A stretch of DNA of 64,000 bases from Bacteroidota bacterium (GTDB lineage Bacteria > Bacteroidota > Ignavibacteria > Kryptoniales > JAKASW01). The notes beneath the pieces are model-generated. The model had not been told where the DNA came from. It ran no database searches and saw only the letters and a list, made by a program, of their open reading frames with translations. This document shows positions 17,398 through 26,309 of this stretch, piece after piece (positions within the stretch are counted from its first letter, which is position 1; each line of letters starts with the position of its first letter). Made by a program: the position numbers and the translations under genes. The stretch spans positions 1-64,000 of the forward strand of contig JAJYIT010000022.1 in assembly GCA_021789975.1 (NCBI GenBank), given 5' to 3'.

Positions 17398-19332
17398 ATG
17401 GTACAGACTATCTCATTTCGCCGATACGAGACCATGCTGTGCGTTCTGATTTGTATGGTCACATTCAAAATCGCGACTGCTGCCGTCGGACCTCCGCAGG
17501 TCGTAATAAATGGTCTTCCACATGTGCTTTGCACTTCTCCCTTGAGTTATCATGTGGACCCCAGCCGCAAATTTTCATTTGATGACATAAAGGACATGCC
17601 TTTTTCAAGTCAGACTGGTGGACTCTCATTGGCGATAGAAAAGTACGGCGTACAGGCACACTACTGGATGAAATTTGCTCTTGACAATCTGGACTCACTT
17701 CCGGTCACCGCTTACCTTGACGCGGGATATTCCGGTGTCATCCGCATCTATGAAATTCAGGATGGAAAGATTGTTGTCCGAAACAGTGGACTCGCGCTGG
17801 CAAAAGATCTCAATGTTTCTTATCCGGAGCTAAGTAAAATTAAATTTGTTATTCCTCCACGCTCTACGATCCAGTATTTCGTCTGTCTGTTCTCTACCCC
17901 GGATTATGCTATTGGGTTGGATCGAGTCAATATCTTCAGCGGCGAGTCCCTCCGTGCTGCCTTTTATCGCACATACTATGAGGGTGCTAATTTTCGTTTC
18001 TTTCAGCTCCTTTTCCTCGGACTTATGCTAACTCAGATGACTTACGTCGTTTTTTCCTGGATCATCGGAAACAGAAGAAAGGAATACGTTTACTATCTCG
18101 TCTACCTGCTCCTGGTCACGGTCTATTTCCTGCAGAAGTTTAACAGAGGTGAAGGCATCTACTGGCCTTTTGAATACTTTCCCTCAATCCGGGTATATCT
18201 CAAATCGGTTTTACTTGCATTGCCTTATGCGTTCTATTTAAAATTCACCCGCTATTTTCTTGACCTAAGTGAGCTTGACAACAGGATTAACAGAAAGTTC
18301 ATTCATCTAGAACGATTCATAGAAGTCTATGTGCTTGTCGATACAGTGTTACGATTCGTACTGCCCGATCCTGAAGAACTGAATAGCATTCTTATGGTCA
18401 CCATCTCAGGGATAGCCCTTTATTGCCTTGTTCTGATTTTTCAGTTAATGAGGCATAAGAAAGTGCTGGTCAACCTAATCCTGACGGGAAGTCTTGCTGC
18501 TGCTTTCGGCGGAGGAATCGGGGTTCTGATTACTCTCTTGAGATTCTATGTTGCCAGATTGAGCATTGGATTCAATAACCTTCTTGGTGCACAGGTAGGT
18601 ATTGTCATTGAGACTATCATATTCACTGCATCACTCAGCTATAAGACACGTCTGATGGAAATTGAAAAAGTTGAGGACCAGAAAAAGCTCATTGCACAAA
18701 TGAAAGAGAATGCGGTGTTGAAAGAGAAGATGGAACAGACCAGGAATAAAATAGCCCGGGATCTCCATGACGATATAGGATCGACTTTGAGCTCCATCCT
18801 GTTGTTCAGCAATGCTGCCAAATCAAAAATCAAGTTTACAGCCGGAGAGGCACGCGAGGTTTTCGGCAAGATTAGCGAGATAGCAGGTATGATGATGGAC
18901 GAAATGAGCGACATTATATGGGCTATAAATCCACGACAGGACAGCATGGAACAGATTCTAAAACGCATGCAGTACTATGCGGCGCCCCTAACGCTCGCAC
19001 GCAATATTCAATTTCATTTCAAAGCGGATGACGATATACGGTATCTTCATCTGGACATGGAAAAACGAAAGAATTTGCTTCTCATTTTCAAAGAAAGCGT
19101 CATAAACGCTTTGAAATACTCGGAAGCAGCAAACCTTCGCGTAAGGTTTTATTTCGCCGATAATTTCCTGCACATGGTTGTTGAAGACGATGGCAAGGGA
19201 TTTTCCCATCCTTCTGAAGTTGGGAATGGACTAAACAACATGAAGACCAGGGCAAAGAATGTGGGGGGACAAGTTGAGATCGACTCCGTGGAAAACGTGG
19301 GCACTACAGTAAGTGTGAGCTTGCCGCTGTAG
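17398..19332 (+). CDS. Sensor histidine kinase with 7TMR-DISM sensory region
   Basis: A membrane two-component sensor of 644 residues. A signal peptide (Arg-Arg then a hydrophobic stretch, about 1-29) leads into an extracytoplasmic 7TMR-DISM-type beta-sandwich (about 40-185). Seven membrane helices (about 200-410), a short coiled coil and a HisKA_3-type kinase core follow. The phospho-acceptor is His457 in RDLHDDIGS. The N-box has ESVINALKYSEA, and G-boxes DDGKGF and NGLNN are present, so it should be active. A TTG at 17395 directly precedes the ATG. The LuxR-type regulator 200 bases downstream is its probable partner. Confidence 0.9.
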   Translation: MVQTISFRRYETMLCVLICMVTFKIATAAVGPPQVVINGLPHVLCTSPLSYHVDPSRKFSFDDIKDMPFSSQTGGLSLAIEKYGVQAHYWMKFALDNLDSLPVTAYLDAGYSGVIRIYEIQDGKIVVRNSGLALAKDLNVSYPELSKIKFVIPPRSTIQYFVCLFSTPDYAIGLDRVNIFSGESLRAAFYRTYYEGANFRFFQLLFLGLMLTQMTYVVFSWIIGNRRKEYVYYLVYLLLVTVYFLQKFNRGEGIYWPFEYFPSIRVYLKSVLLALPYAFYLKFTRYFLDLSELDNRINRKFIHLERFIEVYVLVDTVLRFVLPDPEELNSILMVTISGIALYCLVLIFQLMRHKKVLVNLILTGSLAAAFGGGIGVLITLLRFYVARLSIGFNNLLGAQVGIVIETIIFTASLSYKTRLMEIEKVEDQKKLIAQMKENAVLKEKMEQTRNKIARDLHDDIGSTLSSILLFSNAAKSKIKFTAGEAREVFGKISEIAGMMMDEMSDIIWAINPRQDSMEQILKRMQYYAAPLTLARNIQFHFKADDDIRYLHLDMEKRKNLLLIFKESVINALKYSEAANLRVRFYFADNFLHMVVEDDGKGFSHPSEVGNGLNNMKTRAKNVGGQVEIDSVENVGTTVSVSLPL

Positions 19333-19350
19333 AATCATATTTTCATCCGA
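19333..19350 (+). repeat. 18-bp direct repeat, copy 1 (directly after kinase stop)
   Basis: AATCATATTTTCATCCGA begins at the base after the kinase TAG. It matches the sequence directly after the response-regulator stop codon (20183-20200) at 17 of 18 positions. Confidence 0.7.
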
Positions 19351-19537
19351 TGGCAAATAAGCAAAAAAGTTTAGAAAATGGTAACTGAAATTGATCCTAA
19401 ATGCTGGACAGCTTGTGCTCGACCACAACAGCTTTTAGGGATGGCGTGACACTAATTGAAAAGTAGGCCGGTGCACTGGACTCATGGCGGCATGATTGTG
19501 GTGGGCGACCGGAACAAAGGCTCCAGACGAAGGTCTC

Positions 19538-20182
19538 ATGGACTTTAACTCATCTGTCATTAGAGTAGCTGTCATTGAAGATAATCCAACCTTCCGCAAA
19601 TCGGTGGAAGAGATTCTGAACGCATCCAATCAGATGAAGGTTGTGTCATCTCTGGATAGCTGCCGTCAGATTGTACCGGAGTATAAACTTGCCCGGCCCG
19701 ATGTGGCCCTTGTCGATATAGGTCTTAGAAATAATGAATCCGGAATTGAGTGTGTCGGTATCATACACAACTATTTCCCCGATATAAGAATCATGATGTT
19801 CACTGTGTTCGAAGATGATGACAAGATTTTCGACTCGATTTGTGCAGGGGCGTCGGGCTACATGCTGAAGAAGACCCCGCCGGAGGAGATTATCAGGGCA
19901 TTGATCGCGCTCTACGAGGGAGGCGCACCGATGACGCCTTCTATAGCCAACCGCACGCTGGAGCTGTTTCGCGATAAGCTTCATCCTTCACGGATCGAGT
20001 GGGGATTGACGCCAAGAGAGAAGGAAATTCTTGAATGCCTTGCCGAAGGAAACACATATCAGAAAATTGCCTCGAAGTTATTCATCAGTATCAGCACTGT
20101 GAGAACACATATCATGAGTATCTACGAAAAGCTGCAGGTCAATTCAAAAATCGAAGCGATCCGTAAACTCAATTCGCGGTAA
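19538..20182 (+). CDS. LuxR/NarL-family response regulator
   Basis: A 214-residue DNA-binding regulator. The receiver domain has the acidic pair Glu14-Asp15, phospho-acceptor Asp60 (in LVDIGL) and the Lys of LKKTPP. The C-terminal LuxR-type helix-turn-helix starts at LTPREKEILECLAEG and includes STVRTHIMSIYEKL. I chose the ATG at 19538, preceded by GAAGG, over an upstream in-frame GTG at 19496. It follows a HisKA_3 kinase, its normal partner class, and precedes a T9SS cargo gene, which it might control. Confidence 0.92.
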   Translation: MDFNSSVIRVAVIEDNPTFRKSVEEILNASNQMKVVSSLDSCRQIVPEYKLARPDVALVDIGLRNNESGIECVGIIHNYFPDIRIMMFTVFEDDDKIFDSICAGASGYMLKKTPPEEIIRALIALYEGGAPMTPSIANRTLELFRDKLHPSRIEWGLTPREKEILECLAEGNTYQKIASKLFISISTVRTHIMSIYEKLQVNSKIEAIRKLNSR

Positions 20183-20200
20183 AATCATATTTCCATCCGA
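20183..20200 (+). repeat. 18-bp direct repeat, copy 2 (directly after regulator stop)
   Basis: AATCATATTTCCATCCGA begins at the base after the regulator TAA and differs from copy 1 at one position. The 850-base distance and the identical placement relative to two stop codons make chance unlikely. Confidence 0.7.
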
Positions 20201-20387
20201 TTGTCCGCTGTTTCCTTCTCTCCTTATCTTGTATTCGAGTTATGCATCTAAAGCGATTTGTAATCTATTTGCACATGCTTGGCAGCGAATTGGCAACACC
20301 GTCAAAATTGTGCCGTCTGGATACCTTCTCAATGGAAGGGGCGAGAAGGGTGAAAAAGACAAACAAATAATTGAAAGGGAGCGAGAA

Positions 20388-22472
20388 ATGAAAAGGGTAA
20401 TAGTTCTATTTCTAATGGCATTGCCTTTTGTGTTGGGGGTGTCGAGGGCCGATGCACAGTGGGCGCAGATTGGTCCAAAGGGAGCCAAAGTCACTGATTT
20501 GGCTGTCAGTGGGAACACGATCTATGCAGCCACTTATGGTGGAGTCTTCGTATCAACAGACTTTGGTCTTGATTGGACCCACTCGAATTGGGGGGTCATG
20601 AACGGCGATGTTCAAGCGGTGGCCGCAAACGACAGCAAAGTATTTGCCGCAAGTTGGGACGATACTCTTTACACCCGAGATGCTAATGGCTTAATATGGC
20701 AGAAAAGTTCACTCGAGGATGTGTACTTAGACTGTATCACCATTATTGGGACAAATATTTTCGCAGGTAGTTACTACCAGGGGGTTTATCTCTCAACTGA
20801 TAACGGAGCAACATGGACTCAGGTCAATAGTGGACTGACGGACTTGAAAGTTGACTGCATTACTTCAATTGGGTCAAACGTATTCGCGGGGACAGGGAGC
20901 GGTGTCTTCATGACCACCAATAATGGGTCGAATTGGACAAAGGTGAGCACCGGACTTCCAGACAATGATGTGATTTCGCTTGTGTCCAACGGTACTAACC
21001 TATATGCCGGAGTTTGGGGAAATGGGGGTTGGATTTCGCCCAACAATGGTGACGGCTGGCTTAAGTTCACTGCCTATTCAGTCGGGGATTACCCCAGTGA
21101 TTGGGTGTTCAGCGGGTCCAAGATCTTTGTGGCGTCAACGCGGGTCAACATGAGCTCGGACGGAGGAGCAAGCTGGACCGAGTTTTCAGGGAATGATTGC
21201 CCATATCAGGTCGATGCGTTAGTGATGGTCGGTCCCAACCTTGTTGCCGGGACTCGTTACGACGGTATTTATGTGTCACCGGATGGCGGTGTGAGTTGGA
21301 ATCATATAACTTGGGGTCTCTCAAATTACTGCATGAACGGCGTTGCAGCGGCAGGCGGGACCATACTTACGGCAGGAGCAGGGGGCATGTTTCTCTCAAC
21401 AAACGACGGAGCCAGCTGGAACTCGAGGAGAGTGGGCGATTATGACTGGGCAGATTTCAGCGCTGTTGCTTACAGAAACAGCACGTATGCTTTCGCAGGT
21501 GATGTAAATGGATATGTTTATGTTTCATCGGACGGGGGCAATGGTTGGCAATCAGGTGTGCAGATCGAGCCGGGCGCGAGTGTCACGGCATTTGCATTCA
21601 TCAGCACTTATGCTTTTGCGGCGACACAGCCTTACGAGGCTGGAGTCGAAGGAGGCGTTTACATGTCGTCCGATAACGGTGCAACTTGGGCTCCCGTAAG
21701 TACGGGGCTGCCGACATTGGCTGATACTAATACTCAAGTCAGCTCGCTTGCGGTCATTGGTTCCAGTTTGTTCGCCGGTACTGGTCATGGGGTGTATACA
21801 TCGACCAATAATGGGACGAGTTGGACAAGGGTCAGCAACGGATTGATCGGATCGTGGGTTTACTCGATTGCTGCCAGAGGGACGGAGTTGTTCGCCGGAT
21901 TGTTCGGACAGGGTGTTTTCAGATCAAATAACAATGGGACATCATGGACGCATACAAAATTACAGAAGGATATTACTACTCTGTTCGTCGTTGACACAAA
22001 TGTCTTTGCAGGCACTTGGGCCGAAGGAGTATATGTTCTTGCAAACAGCGACTCAAGCTGGAAATTGGCAGGCCTGCCGAGCACTTATGTTACCTCTTTT
22101 GCAAGCATCAACGGAGAACTTTTTGCCAGTACTTTGAATAATACAGTCTGGGTGCGCCCGATCTCTGAATTATTGACCGGCACAAAGAGCAAGACCGGCG
22201 ACATTCCGAGCAGCTTCAAGTTGTCGCAGAACTATCCGAATCCGTTCAATCCGACAACGGTCATCAGCTATCAGCTGCCAGCCAACAGCCTCGTGAGCCT
22301 AAAGGTATACGATGTCCTTGGCAGAGAAGTGAGGACACTCGTGATCGAGCGTCAGAATGCTGGTACACATACTGTGACTTTCGACGGGACCGGCCTGTCC
22401 AGCGGAGTGTATTTCTACAGCATCAGAGCTGGATCTTTTTCCCAGACAAAGAAACTCATGTTGATTAAATAG
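20388..22472 (+). CDS. Secreted BNR/YCF48-like repeat protein with T9SS sorting domain
   Basis: A 694-residue exported protein. A signal peptide (MKRVIVLFLMALPFVLGVSRADA) is followed by about twelve repeats of 40-60 residues with S-x-D/N-N-G-x-x-W motifs such as STNNGTSWTRVSNG, the pattern of BNR/photosystem-assembly beta-propellers. The last 80 residues form the T9SS tail with QNYPNPFNPTTV and end in LMLIK. The ATG at 20388 has a good AAGGGAG ribosome site; an open frame upstream lacks a signal peptide at its start. Role unknown; such propellers often serve in surface binding. Confidence 0.88.
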   Translation: MKRVIVLFLMALPFVLGVSRADAQWAQIGPKGAKVTDLAVSGNTIYAATYGGVFVSTDFGLDWTHSNWGVMNGDVQAVAANDSKVFAASWDDTLYTRDANGLIWQKSSLEDVYLDCITIIGTNIFAGSYYQGVYLSTDNGATWTQVNSGLTDLKVDCITSIGSNVFAGTGSGVFMTTNNGSNWTKVSTGLPDNDVISLVSNGTNLYAGVWGNGGWISPNNGDGWLKFTAYSVGDYPSDWVFSGSKIFVASTRVNMSSDGGASWTEFSGNDCPYQVDALVMVGPNLVAGTRYDGIYVSPDGGVSWNHITWGLSNYCMNGVAAAGGTILTAGAGGMFLSTNDGASWNSRRVGDYDWADFSAVAYRNSTYAFAGDVNGYVYVSSDGGNGWQSGVQIEPGASVTAFAFISTYAFAATQPYEAGVEGGVYMSSDNGATWAPVSTGLPTLADTNTQVSSLAVIGSSLFAGTGHGVYTSTNNGTSWTRVSNGLIGSWVYSIAARGTELFAGLFGQGVFRSNNNGTSWTHTKLQKDITTLFVVDTNVFAGTWAEGVYVLANSDSSWKLAGLPSTYVTSFASINGELFASTLNNTVWVRPISELLTGTKSKTGDIPSSFKLSQNYPNPFNPTTVISYQLPANSLVSLKVYDVLGREVRTLVIERQNAGTHTVTFDGTGLSSGVYFYSIRAGSFSQTKKLMLIK

Positions 22473-22546
22473 TCATGCAAGGCTTCTCTTCTTGAACCGA
22501 AGTCACATTCCGGCCTATAAGGAATGGATGAAAGGAGGAAGGTAGA

Positions 22547-23167
22547 ATGAACGACCTACGGCATTCTCAATTTGTTCACCGGGTGACTCTCAGTGCCATC
22601 TTAATGTTGATACTCTGCATACCGGAACTGGCAGTAACTGCCCTCGCACAATGCAACAAATGCACCGACAGGGTCATCTATTTGTTCGACGTGAAAGTGG
22701 ATGTGCCGCGGCCGGCTGCCGATGCTGATTCTATATTGAAATGGAGAGATCTTTTCTGGCCCGGGAGGATCGCTCGTTACTGGAGCCACATGGAGGATCC
22801 GAGTAAAGATTGTTTCGTCTGGATCGACGGAGGGGCGTGGCTCGCTGAGAAATTCCAGGGCGACACTCTCACGTTAGGCGATGAATACACAAACCTCCCG
22901 CCCGCAGGCACAGTCAACGGTGTGCCATATCTTTTGACGGGATCAGTCGAGCCTTCAGGTTCAGGAACGAACCAGTACAAGTTTACCTGGCAGATTGAGT
23001 GTGGCACCTCCCGCGAAGTGGTGAAGTCGTCAACGGTCAACTTTACGGTTGATTCGGCGGGTATAGAAAATGCCGGTGAAACAGCTGCATGTGAGCTGAT
23101 GCCAATCGCATCCACCATAACGGCATTCGAAATACAGAAACGTGAAAATGACCCGGGCGTCGCTTGA
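22547..23167 (+). CDS. N-terminal half of a T9SS protein gene interrupted by an in-frame TGA
   Basis: The 206-codon frame begins with a signal peptide (ending near ALAQ) and a CNKC pair, then a domain I do not recognise. It ends at TGA 23165-23167. The same frame continues without interruption as GGEGAYLKVTPS and then through the Ig-like and sorting domains to 24493. The natural gene was therefore about 648 residues long. As it stands the product would be a truncated secreted protein without its sorting tail. A sequencing error is the main alternative to a real nonsense mutation. An AGGAGG-type ribosome site precedes the ATG. Confidence 0.75.
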   Translation: MNDLRHSQFVHRVTLSAILMLILCIPELAVTALAQCNKCTDRVIYLFDVKVDVPRPAADADSILKWRDLFWPGRIARYWSHMEDPSKDCFVWIDGGAWLAEKFQGDTLTLGDEYTNLPPAGTVNGVPYLLTGSVEPSGSGTNQYKFTWQIECGTSREVVKSSTVNFTVDSAGIENAGETAACELMPIASTITAFEIQKRENDPGVA

Positions 23168-23191
23168 GGCGGTGAGGGAGCGTACCTGAAA

Positions 23192-24493
23192 GTGACTCCA
23201 TCGAGACACTCCCTGGCCCCGCATGACACAATAACTGTTGAACTCGAAATGGTTGACTGTGACGGTTATCCTCTAAAAAACCGGGTGATCAATCTGGGCG
23301 GCTTGACCGATCCTACACTTGGCAGCTTTCCTGGACCAGAAGGTGGTACAGTGTCGCAAAATGAAGTCACAACAGATGATGAGGGGAAAGCCCGGGTGGT
23401 TTTCACAGCCGGCGAGGATCCGGGCATCGCCATGGTCAATGCCGTATATATATTCCGCAAACCGCACGGGTGGAAAGATGCCCTGACGGGAAGCGGAGTG
23501 ATAAATTTGAAGCCGAACTCGTGGGAGGTCAACGCAACTTGCAGAGTCACCGACAACGACTTCAAGGACACCACATACACAGAGGATGGAGCAACTATAA
23601 CTGATCAAAACTATTCTTTCGAGCAAGAGTACATGTATTGTCACTTTGTTTATGAAATGACTGACCTCAGTAATGTGGGACCTCATAAGCTGGTGTTATC
23701 AGCTCCCGCCGATGAATCGACCGGAGGAATCGTTCACAGCCTTTCAGTATTTGCTACATGGTCATACGTCGGAACGACACGCTGGGACGGGACGCAAAAT
23801 GATGAGGGGTATAGTGTCTCAGAAGGCACTTCGAGAAATTTTTCTGGGAACAGCAGCGACTCATCTTCGATCATGGGCTCGTCTGGACTGAATTTTGATT
23901 ACAATGGAACCATCAATCTTATCGGGATGAGCACACCCGTGCACAGGGTTGGCGAGGACCACCGCTGGCCTAAGACCCAGCCTCAAAGTCCAATTGAACC
24001 TGAATACGACACCTCTTCAGACATAGATGATTGGGGTCCGGTCGGATGCAGCACTAATTCCGGGGATCCTTCCGCCTCCTTTACGCAGCAGGACTCAAAC
24101 TACTCAGTAGAATACAACGAGGTAAACAACATACCGGGAGTTTGGACAGAGACTGAGCGACTATTCGCACAGATCACGCGCTCATTTGAACCCGCCGCCG
24201 TTTTGCAGCCTGACGCAAACAAACTGCCGCGAAATTTTGCCCTGCGACAGAATTATCCAAACCCGTTCAACCCCACAACGACAATAAGCTATAAGTTTCC
24301 GGCTGTCAGCTACGTCACGTTGATCGTGTACGATGTGCTCGGCAAAAAAGTCAGGACGCTTGTGAATGAGCGTCAGAGCGCCGGTACATACACCGTCACA
24401 TTTGATGGAAGTGGTCTATCAAGTGGAGTGTATTTCTACAGGCTGTCCGCGGGTTCTTATGCTCAATCCGAGAAGCTTGTATTAATCAAGTGA
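23192..24493 (+). CDS. C-terminal half of the interrupted T9SS protein gene (Ig-like domain and sorting tail)
   Basis: This frame is in phase with the gene above and separated from it only by the TGA and a few codons. The GTG at 23192 is not a convincing start, since no signal peptide follows. It encodes an Ig-like (invasin/Big-type) domain (about 1-100), a central region of unknown type, and the T9SS tail with QNYPNPFNPTTT ending in LVLIK. Without its upstream half the product could not be exported. It is best read as the rest of a gene inactivated by a point mutation. Confidence 0.75.
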   Translation: MTPSRHSLAPHDTITVELEMVDCDGYPLKNRVINLGGLTDPTLGSFPGPEGGTVSQNEVTTDDEGKARVVFTAGEDPGIAMVNAVYIFRKPHGWKDALTGSGVINLKPNSWEVNATCRVTDNDFKDTTYTEDGATITDQNYSFEQEYMYCHFVYEMTDLSNVGPHKLVLSAPADESTGGIVHSLSVFATWSYVGTTRWDGTQNDEGYSVSEGTSRNFSGNSSDSSSIMGSSGLNFDYNGTINLIGMSTPVHRVGEDHRWPKTQPQSPIEPEYDTSSDIDDWGPVGCSTNSGDPSASFTQQDSNYSVEYNEVNNIPGVWTETERLFAQITRSFEPAAVLQPDANKLPRNFALRQNYPNPFNPTTTISYKFPAVSYVTLIVYDVLGKKVRTLVNERQSAGTYTVTFDGSGLSSGVYFYRLSAGSYAQSEKLVLIK

Positions 24494-24527
24494 TGAAATA
24501 AATGTGAAATGAAAGGAATCAAAGCAG

Positions 24528-25340
24528 ATGGCTAAGAAATCCAGCTCGTTGATCACAAAATTGTTGTTAATCGTTTTTGTCGGCGTTATGGTCGGGTGCC
24601 ACGGGAGTTCGACGAGCCCGAACACTGCCGGAACATTGACACAGCAGCAAATTGAAACAAGGGTAACCGCTTCTACCGAAATTCCTTCCAATATTCTAAG
24701 CGCCATTACGGGATTACTGTCGGCGCCAAGCGACACCGGTTCCGTCCCGACCCTGCCTGCGCCGCCTTCTTCCTCTTCGACAAGAATAGGTAAGGCTCAG
24801 AAGGTTGATGCGACTTCCGGTCCCGGTGATTGGGCCGGACCCGACAGCCAGGGCTGGTACACCCGGACTTATGAAGGCGGGTATGGAAATTCCTATAGAT
24901 ACACAGAAAAGGTGCGTTACCAGGAAAAAACGCTTGAGTACAAATTCTCAATTACATACAGCGGCACCGATGGCTCCTATTCATATGAGATCGACTTTAA
25001 ATGTGCCAGGGGCACTAACGGTTTATTAACGGGTTACCATGACATTCAAGTTCAAATGAATAGTAATCAATCTGGTACCAATACCGGAGACCACTTTAGG
25101 TTGGAATTCACCAATTGCGATCCCAATACCGGCGCGGGTGTTTTTGATTGGTACAACGGCGGCGATATAAACAGTTTGAATCCATATTCGCATTTCTTGC
25201 ACATGAACGCAGTCGATGCAGGACAGGGTCAGCTTCACGTCTATGTTACCACCTACGGCGATTATGGTGGTACATGGGATTATTACTGTGCGTATCAGCC
25301 GCTTGGTATCGAGAATATTGAGGAAATATTCGGGAATTGA
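24528..25340 (+). CDS. Lipoprotein of unknown function
   Basis: A 270-residue lipoprotein. The lipobox VMVGC places the lipid-bearing cysteine at residue 24. A low-complexity Ser/Thr/Pro linker (about 25-85) follows, then a mainly beta C-terminal domain rich in Tyr and Gly. I recognise no family. AAAGGAA lies before the ATG. It stands in a row of envelope genes and may belong to the same transcript as its neighbours, with gaps of 34 and 117 bases. Confidence 0.75.
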   Translation: MAKKSSSLITKLLLIVFVGVMVGCHGSSTSPNTAGTLTQQQIETRVTASTEIPSNILSAITGLLSAPSDTGSVPTLPAPPSSSSTRIGKAQKVDATSGPGDWAGPDSQGWYTRTYEGGYGNSYRYTEKVRYQEKTLEYKFSITYSGTDGSYSYEIDFKCARGTNGLLTGYHDIQVQMNSNQSGTNTGDHFRLEFTNCDPNTGAGVFDWYNGGDINSLNPYSHFLHMNAVDAGQGQLHVYVTTYGDYGGTWDYYCAYQPLGIENIEEIFGN

Positions 25341-25457
25341 AACATATGTGGAAATGGAAGAAAGGCATCCGACAAAAATCAGTCGTGTTTCGGTGACAGA
25401 ATGACCAACGTAAACACCGATAAGAAACCACAACCATAATAATATAGGAGGCAAACC

Positions 25458-26309
25458 GTGAAGCGTTATCATTTACTGTTTTTGCTGCCATTTGTCTTGG
25501 TAACGACGGCATCTGCTCAGAACTTTTTGAAGAATCCCGGCTTCGAGGACTGGGGAAGTGATGGCCTGCCGTCGTTCTGGACCTCGAGTACAAACTCCTG
25601 CCAAAAATCTACCGTGACGCATTCAGGCTCAGGAGCGGTGAAGCTGGTGAACTCACAGATCTTCGGAACGAGCATAATGGGTGCCATCAGCCAGGATTCG
25701 ATTCGTGTTTCGGGTTCGACTTTTTCCGTGAAGGGATGGTACCAGTTGCATCCTGACGGCGGAGATGGACTTGCAATATTCATATGGATATATGGGCAAG
25801 GGGAATATGCGGGTTTGACCGGTGCTAACGTTCTTGATATAGTAGGTACTAAGGACGTGTGGACAGCATTTGCGCTTGGTGCTATAATGACTCCCGGTAC
25901 GACTGGCGATTCGGCCGCCGTTGATTTCTGGATCATGCCCGATTCGGCTTCCGATTCCTGGCATCCAGGTACGTATGTATTGCTTGACGATATTGTTCTG
26001 GATAATACTGTTACCGGCATAACGCGTGACGAATTCACATCTCCATCCAATTTCTCTTTATCACAGAATTATCCAAATCCATTCAACCCTTCAACTCAAA
26101 TCGAGTTCACCGTACCCACGAGAAGCCACGTGACACTCAAAGTGTATAACATCATGGGACAGGAGGTAAAGACTCTTATCGACCAGGATCTTCAGGCGGG
26201 AAGGTATAAGGCCGATTTTGACGGGTCCAGTTTACCATCAGGGACGTACTTGTACAGGATCCAGGCTGGTACATTTTCCAAGACAAGCAAAATGACTCTC
26301 TTGAAATGA
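25458..26309 (+). CDS. Secreted carbohydrate-binding-like protein with T9SS sorting domain
   Basis: A 283-residue exported protein. A signal peptide ends at TASAQ. The N-terminal jelly-roll-like region begins NFLKNPGFEDW, the usual opening of CBM4/9/22-type carbohydrate-binding domains. No catalytic domain follows. The T9SS tail with QNYPNPFNPSTQ starts near residue 204 and ends in MTLLK. The start is a GTG with an AGGAGG site seven bases upstream. Binding to a polysaccharide is inferred from the fold pattern only. Confidence 0.83.
   Translation: MKRYHLLFLLPFVLVTTASAQNFLKNPGFEDWGSDGLPSFWTSSTNSCQKSTVTHSGSGAVKLVNSQIFGTSIMGAISQDSIRVSGSTFSVKGWYQLHPDGGDGLAIFIWIYGQGEYAGLTGANVLDIVGTKDVWTAFALGAIMTPGTTGDSAAVDFWIMPDSASDSWHPGTYVLLDDIVLDNTVTGITRDEFTSPSNFSLSQNYPNPFNPSTQIEFTVPTRSHVTLKVYNIMGQEVKTLIDQDLQAGRYKADFDGSSLPSGTYLYRIQAGTFSKTSKMTLLK

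Follow-up and report, generated by a model that had tools for sequence, protein, structure and literature searches.

The window, by which we mean the whole stretch of 64,000 nucleotides analyzed here, contains a sensor kinase gene, a response regulator (RR) gene, and a gene for an exported protein, all three on the forward strand. The kinase gene (17398..19332) encodes the 7TMR-DISM_7TM membrane part, HisKA_3, and HATPase_c of Pfam, together with a weak match to 7TMR-DISMED2. The RR gene (19538..20182; 214 aa) is of the NarL/LuxR type and matches Response_reg and GerE, the LuxR-type helix-turn-helix (HTH); a receiver plus a GerE HTH is expected of the cognate regulator of a NarL/FixJ-type operator, and the recognition helix reads TVRTHIMSIY. 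The third gene (20388..22472) encodes a BNR/Sortilin-like repeat protein with a T9SS type A C-terminal tail (Pfam, NCBIfam) and is the presumed target. T9SS sorting tails end three open reading frames (ORFs) 3′ of the RR gene (20388–22472, 23192–24493, and 25458–26309), and the interval 20388–26309 is a possible secreted-protein cluster with the putative operator described below only before its first member. The intergenic region between the kinase and RR genes is 205 bp long; its stretch 19380–19537 is longer than in most relatives and has no RNA family match in Rfam.

An initial annotation of this DNA had pointed to near-identical 18-mers placed directly after the two stop codons, and alignment of the window confirmed them. 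The kinase-side copy, AATCATATTTTCATCCGA (19333–19350), begins right after the TAG of the kinase ORF (17395/17398–19332), and the RR-side copy, AATCATATTTCCATCCGA (20183–20200), right after the TAA of the RR ORF (19538–20182). They agree at 17 of 18 positions with a spacing of 850 bp, and the identity runs on into the last codons, giving 24 of 27 bases (19325–19351 versus 20175–20201). When the window was scanned with up to 3 mismatches, these two 18-mers were the only matches; at least two copies appeared in 2 of 100 window shuffles. A reader comparing stop-codon pairs has a finite number of them to choose from, which leaves some room for coincidence. However, the probability of at least 17 of 18 matches is ~8e-10 for one aligned pair at the window composition, and this figure, together with the conservation in homologues described below, agrees with the annotation in disfavoring chance, for which we see a vanishingly small probability.

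Each 18-mer belongs to an imperfect palindrome of 20 bp, AATCATATTTYCATCCGATK, which terminates in a −35-like TTG or TGG. Copy 1 of this putative operator, AATCATATTTTCATCCGATG (19333..19352, forward strand), is located upstream of the RR gene; 5 of its 8 outer pairs are symmetric when counted by hand, and its right end abuts TGG (19351–19353), not TTG, at the −35 position. Copy 2, AATCATATTTCCATCCGATT (20183..20202, forward strand), is located upstream of the T9SS-tailed gene, has 6 of 8 symmetric outer pairs, and overlaps a −35-like TTG at 20201–20203. Both were assigned from the repeat match and from homologues. Putative −10 hexamers, assigned from a position-specific signal found across the class, follow on the same strand at 19374..19379 (GAAAAT, as nAnnnT, at 17-bp spacing) and at 20224..20230 (either TTATCT, spaced by 17 bp, or TATCTT, spaced by 18 bp). 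These hexamers fit the class-wide geometry loosely, and GAAAAT of copy 1 is a poor one. A generic promoter scan found no consensus σ70 promoter at either site, and a scan of the window for the palindrome pattern with 2 mismatches yielded 6 matches against 4.5 expected from shuffles and so did not stand out from the background.

Homologous loci and other genomic copies

Six homologous loci keep the site after both genes. Their RRs are 81% (L264), 75% (L265), 72% (L358), 54% (L291), 53% (L266), and 53% (L359) identical to the window RR, and the helix T[VI]RTHI[MC] is kept in all seven RRs. The RR-side copies match the query used at 17–21 of 21 bases and the kinase-side copies at 14–19 of 21, the weakest being that of L358 (14/21), whereas the intergenic DNA flanking the site aligns poorly. 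The consensus of the palindrome over the homologues is approximately AATCAKATNWTCATCCGATT, followed by G. In L264, from a MAG labelled Ignavibacteriaceae, the kinase TAA is followed immediately by AATCATATGTTCATCCGATTG and the regulator TAA, at an offset of one base, by AATCATATTTTCATCCGATTG. In L265, from a MAG labelled Thermoflavifilum, AATCAGATGATTATCCGATTG spans the kinase stop and AATCAGATGATCATCCGATTG lies at −1 relative to the regulator stop, with 7 of 8 outer pairs symmetric in both copies. The −10 candidates in the window and homologues are GAAAAT, TTATCT/TATCTT, GAAATT, TAACTT, GAATTT, TAATTT, CAATTT, TAAATT, and CAATTT, with TCTCTT weaker. In L298, whose partial RR lies at the start of a contig (53% identical, helix TVRSHIRN), no such operator was found, and a DNA-level homology search of 61 genomes returned short regulator fragments only.

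The offset of zero reported after both stop codons held for the RR side, where the copy lies at most 1 base from the stop (−1, 0, or +1) in 6 of 7 loci, window included, with L291 at +176. It did not hold for the kinase side, where the offsets in the seven loci are 0, 0, 0, −10, −10, −22, and +43.

These loci also bear on a trace of duplication or recombination, one of the origins that the annotation had offered. Near-identical direct repeats do flank the RR gene, as if it had been duplicated, subjected to gene conversion, or inserted between them. However, the homologues keep both 20-mers despite differing flanks, the repeats end near the operator edge, and paralogous kinase–RR loci have the same architecture with different repeat sequences at the same places. 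We therefore consider an origin of this kind exceedingly unlikely.

The window RR is 72–81% identical to the RRs of L264, L265, and L358 and ~44% or less to RRs of its own genus, while the window kinase is 54% identical to a paralogue in its own genome versus 51% and 45% to the kinases of L264 and L265. The mismatch between the RR and kinase identities possibly reflects horizontal sharing and partner exchange.

Within the 4.70-Mb assembly, 13 places matched with 3 or fewer mismatches: the two window copies at 0, one at 2, and ten at 3. Eight of the ten 3-mismatch places are inside ORFs of at least 250 aa and two are ambiguous; the two weak extra places are C30:28599 (intergenic) and C36:21980. 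The first of these (C30:28599–28619, L003), with 2 mismatches, precedes by a few hundred bases an ORF that we take to be acyl-CoA ligase-like; inspection by eye at the usual spacing showed no clear −10. When the L264 and L265 genomes were scanned with up to 3 mismatches, the matches outside the locus were all within ORFs. Because there are only two clear copies in the window's genome, and because the other matches in L264 and L265 are all inside ORFs, we regard the circuit as local. A genome-wide repeat family was rejected, as the assembly holds too few copies. The annotation had named, as evidence against a functional element, a lack of further copies combined with a lack of conservation; further copies are indeed nearly absent from the genome, but conservation is clear in the homologues.

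Contig C10 of the same genome (L081) carries two tandem kinase–RR pairs, one with a Reg_prop/Y_Y_Y kinase and one with a 7TMR-DISM kinase. The HTH domains of their RRs are near-identical and the pairs have one operator, AACTGNACATTYGTTCAGTT, in common; from these similarities, the outputs of the two pairs may be merged. The last C10 copy precedes another BNR plus Por_Secre_tail gene. C10-type operators also occur outside the kinase locus, at C83:9747 (L212) and C53:21707 (L214), before ORFs with export-like N-termini.

Palindromes and putative promoters across kinase–regulator pairs

Homologous kinase–RR pairs were surveyed at 101 loci, later widened to 149. The loci were picked by best RR scores rather than at random, and close relatives such as L081 and L082 are among them; the permutation figures are therefore optimistic. 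In the window's own genus, many pairs carry a 20-bp palindrome after the kinase stop (AACTGTACATTTGTTCAGTT, AATACC-N8-GGTATT, or AACTATTCAAATGATTAGTT), often repeated after the regulator stop. A match of at least 16 of 20 bases common to both post-stop regions was found in 26 of 93 pairs, compared with a mean of 3.0 and a maximum of 10 in 2000 re-pairings; one further pair, with a region shorter than 100 bases, was left out of the 94. TTG-ended 20-mers with at least 6 of 8 outer pairs symmetric were present after 36 of 94 kinase stops (0.85 expected) and 40 of 108 RR stops (1.85 expected), which makes them 20 to 40 times commoner than in shuffled regions, the shuffles being simple ones that keep base composition only. 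The full set gave 46 of 139 on the kinase side and 50 of 159 on the RR side, and 2 and 12 when the TTG was required on the other strand. The window palindrome is an imperfect representative of these sites. Searching without restriction for the best 20-mer palindrome in 110 bp did not discriminate (shuffle p 0.02 to 0.95), and the information came from the within-pair repeat and the TTG-anchored palindrome.

Among RRs with a readable helix, 69 of 153 had a site by our criterion and 84 had none, and the layout is therefore far from universal. A distant set of 17 Paenibacillus and Fictibacillus RRs had no site after the RR gene (0/17; 0.25 expected), while 37 RRs mainly from Bacteroidota, window homologues included, had 16 (1.0 expected). 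The layout thus extends beyond the window's class and is not found everywhere. A same-strand ORF starts within 420 bp of 39 of the 50 RR-side sites, with none for the other 11, and many of the ORFs 3′ of these sites have signal-peptide-like starts as judged by eye. Eight of the 11 sites without an ORF belong to RRs with a TVRHH helix (L148, L155, L157, L159, L164, L167, L189, and L229).

Across the class, the sites start at −10 to +18 relative to the kinase stop and at −1 to +111 relative to the RR stop. The downstream spacing, in contrast, is constant: TTG, 20 bases, and TAnnnT, corresponding to a −35/−10 pair at 17 bp. For these promoter counts, identical site-plus-downstream stretches were merged, which reduced the kinase-side sites from 46 to 44 and the RR-side sites from 50 to 49. 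The hexamer starting 20 bases past the TTG had A at its second position in 35/44 kinase-side and 36/49 RR-side sites and T at its sixth position in 39/44 and 40/49. With this spacing, 32/44 and 31/49 sites had the A..T pair, compared with at most 8 and 13 at the other spacings from 14 to 27. The Bacteroidota-type promoter consists of −33 TTTG and −7 TAnnTTTG. In our sites, TA and later T's were enriched at the −10, and the final G of TAnnTTTG was not clear-cut.

The same geometry speaks against the mRNA 3′-element suggested in the annotation. In the window, the offset of zero after both stops would suit a 3′-end element or terminator common to two co-regulated genes, and only 2 of 200 shuffled sequences folded as well as the copy 2 RNA with its flanks (z −2.74). 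We attribute that folding to the operator palindrome plus flanks; copy 1 RNA gave no folding signal (z 0.55). The position of the sites is fixed to the downstream promoter and not to the stop codon, since kinase-side sites often begin in coding sequence (at −10 in 11 of 46) and the −10 spacing does not vary. Scans of the window sites found no terminator-like site, that is, no G+C-rich stem followed by a T run, and no known RNA family (Rfam, E ≤ 1). A shared 3′ element is thus very unlikely, and a small-RNA target was rejected on the same class-wide geometry and the Rfam, terminator, and folding scans.

The palindrome, the fixed distance to a downstream −10, and the conservation in homologues favor another option of the annotation, a protein-binding site. 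At the level of sequence, our comparisons establish the two copies and their palindrome, the fixed −10 spacing, the conservation, and the class-wide occurrence of repeats and palindromes specific to each pair. We conclude, with a probability of about 0.86, that the twin 18-mers are the cores of the RR's own operator, through which the RR would regulate its own gene and drive the T9SS-tailed neighbor gene.

In the proposed mechanism, the 7TMR-DISM kinase would sense a signal and the RR would become phosphorylated, and binding by the RR is predicted to depend on this phosphorylation. The window RR, as the probable binder of both copies, would bind the 20-bp palindromic operator as a dimer beside the −35 and recruit polymerase. 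Binding at copy 1 would activate the RR gene itself in positive feedback, and binding at copy 2 would activate the gene for the exported T9SS-tailed protein. Each copy would occupy approximately −53 to −34 of a σ70-like promoter, its last bases starting a weak −35 (TTG); because the TTG/−10 geometry is fixed, the site center would fall near −43.5. Class II activators usually bind close to −43.5.

The same operator could instead serve an RR that acts as a repressor, covering the −35 and shutting its own and the neighbor promoter. The overlap of the site with the −35 is a position able to serve repression. However, the three bases after the TTG are poorly conserved, with no single base above 0.41, and there is no good consensus promoter, as would be expected if the promoter depended on an activator; contact with polymerase would in turn fit the fixed 17-bp geometry. 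From this promoter weakness and geometry we infer activation by the window RR, and we consider repression unlikely, though deserving of some weight.

Recognition helix and putative operator sequence

We compared the recognition helices of the RRs with their operators, with X denoting residue 4 of the helix motif T-V-x-X-H, taken to correspond to NarL position 189. Among the 92 RRs with a site in all, half-site base 3 was C in 24 of 25 with X = F and 10 of 11 with X = H; it was T in 11/11 with N, 21/22 with T, 14/16 with S, and 3/4 with A. Where an arginine stood just before X, half-site base 5 was a purine in 155 of 162 half-sites, and where N, H, Q, or T stood there, it was C in 18 of 22. These pairings suggest a candidate code in which X = F/H reads AAC..GTT, X = N/S/T reads AAT..ATT, and half-site base 5 depends on whether arginine directly precedes X. 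The code was worded after the first 101 loci had been viewed, and the 48 added loci served as a later check: the sites ended in GTTG for 10/10 with F, in GGTTG for 2/3 with H, and in CATTG for 2/3 with N.

Operator distance tracked recognition-helix distance when receiver distance was controlled (partial Mantel r 0.31, p 0.0005, 2000 permutations). This correlation used 69 RRs with a site, with exact duplicate RR tails and the 6 of 159 RRs with an unreadable helix left out. The agreement between helix and operator is largely clustered by lineage. A receiver-domain tree gave only three independent aromatic/small contrasts, two of which agree with the helix–operator pairing; wider contrasts, not distance-matched, gave p values of 0.023 and 0.037. 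Two RRs with other X residues and two with other bases were left out of the aromatic/small contrasts. The results suggest a residue-to-base recognition code for NarL-type RRs, which we consider likely although it is only weakly separated from shared ancestry.

We would give even odds to a broader proposal, that Ignavibacteria-type and other Bacteroidota carry a large family of self-contained modules of kinase, regulator, and exported protein, with an operator at the kinase stop and before the exported gene, each with its own sequence and readable from two helix residues. If true, this two-residue reading would be a recognition code for the NarL family and would document how the outputs of paralogous two-component systems stay separate.

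Comparison with known systems

With this analysis, a curious repeat becomes a local circuit that can be tested. For this RR family, an operator can be proposed without experiments by finding a 20-mer that recurs behind both the kinase and the RR gene. Dozens of such regulator–operator pairs offer a basis for asking which helix residues determine DNA specificity among NarL-family RRs, and the same pairs bear on module-by-module regulation of exported T9SS-tailed proteins. Neither this layout nor a NarL-family code was found among the titles and opening lines of abstracts listed in the literature searches, which likewise listed no described regulon of this kind in the window's lineage.

A recognition code derived from local regulation has been outlined for the LacI family (Camas et al. 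2010; PMC2978694). There, as here, recognition residues are matched to operator bases by means of autoregulatory and downstream-neighbor sites. The present case differs in that the regulators are NarL-type RRs of two-component systems, whose candidate code is only weakly separated from phylogeny. Motif co-evolution in the GntR and IclR families is summarized as a correlation of operator sets from comparative genomics with regulator residues (PMC4494728, PMC8222616); these are, by the same summaries, DNA-binding families different from that of the window RR.

The closer relatives are the NarL/FixJ response regulators NarL, VraR, DevR/DosR, and DegU, which have a receiver plus a GerE domain as the window RR does; VraR, DevR, and NarL are among the solved chains closest to it. 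DosR binds an inverted-repeat site of ~20 bp, and the window site is likewise an imperfect inverted repeat of ~20 bp, located at a putative promoter and conserved with the RR in homologues. For Listeria DegU, a model is outlined in which the recognition helix of the dimer enters the major groove (PMC9263151). Compared with these NarL/FixJ operators, the window has its own operator sequence, with only two clear sites in the genome. The layout also differs, as one copy spans or follows the kinase stop codon while the other follows that of the regulator, and the kinases concerned are of the 7TMR-DISM or Reg_prop kind. The window operator would add a member to the known NarL/FixJ operators, with a layout and a sequence of its own.
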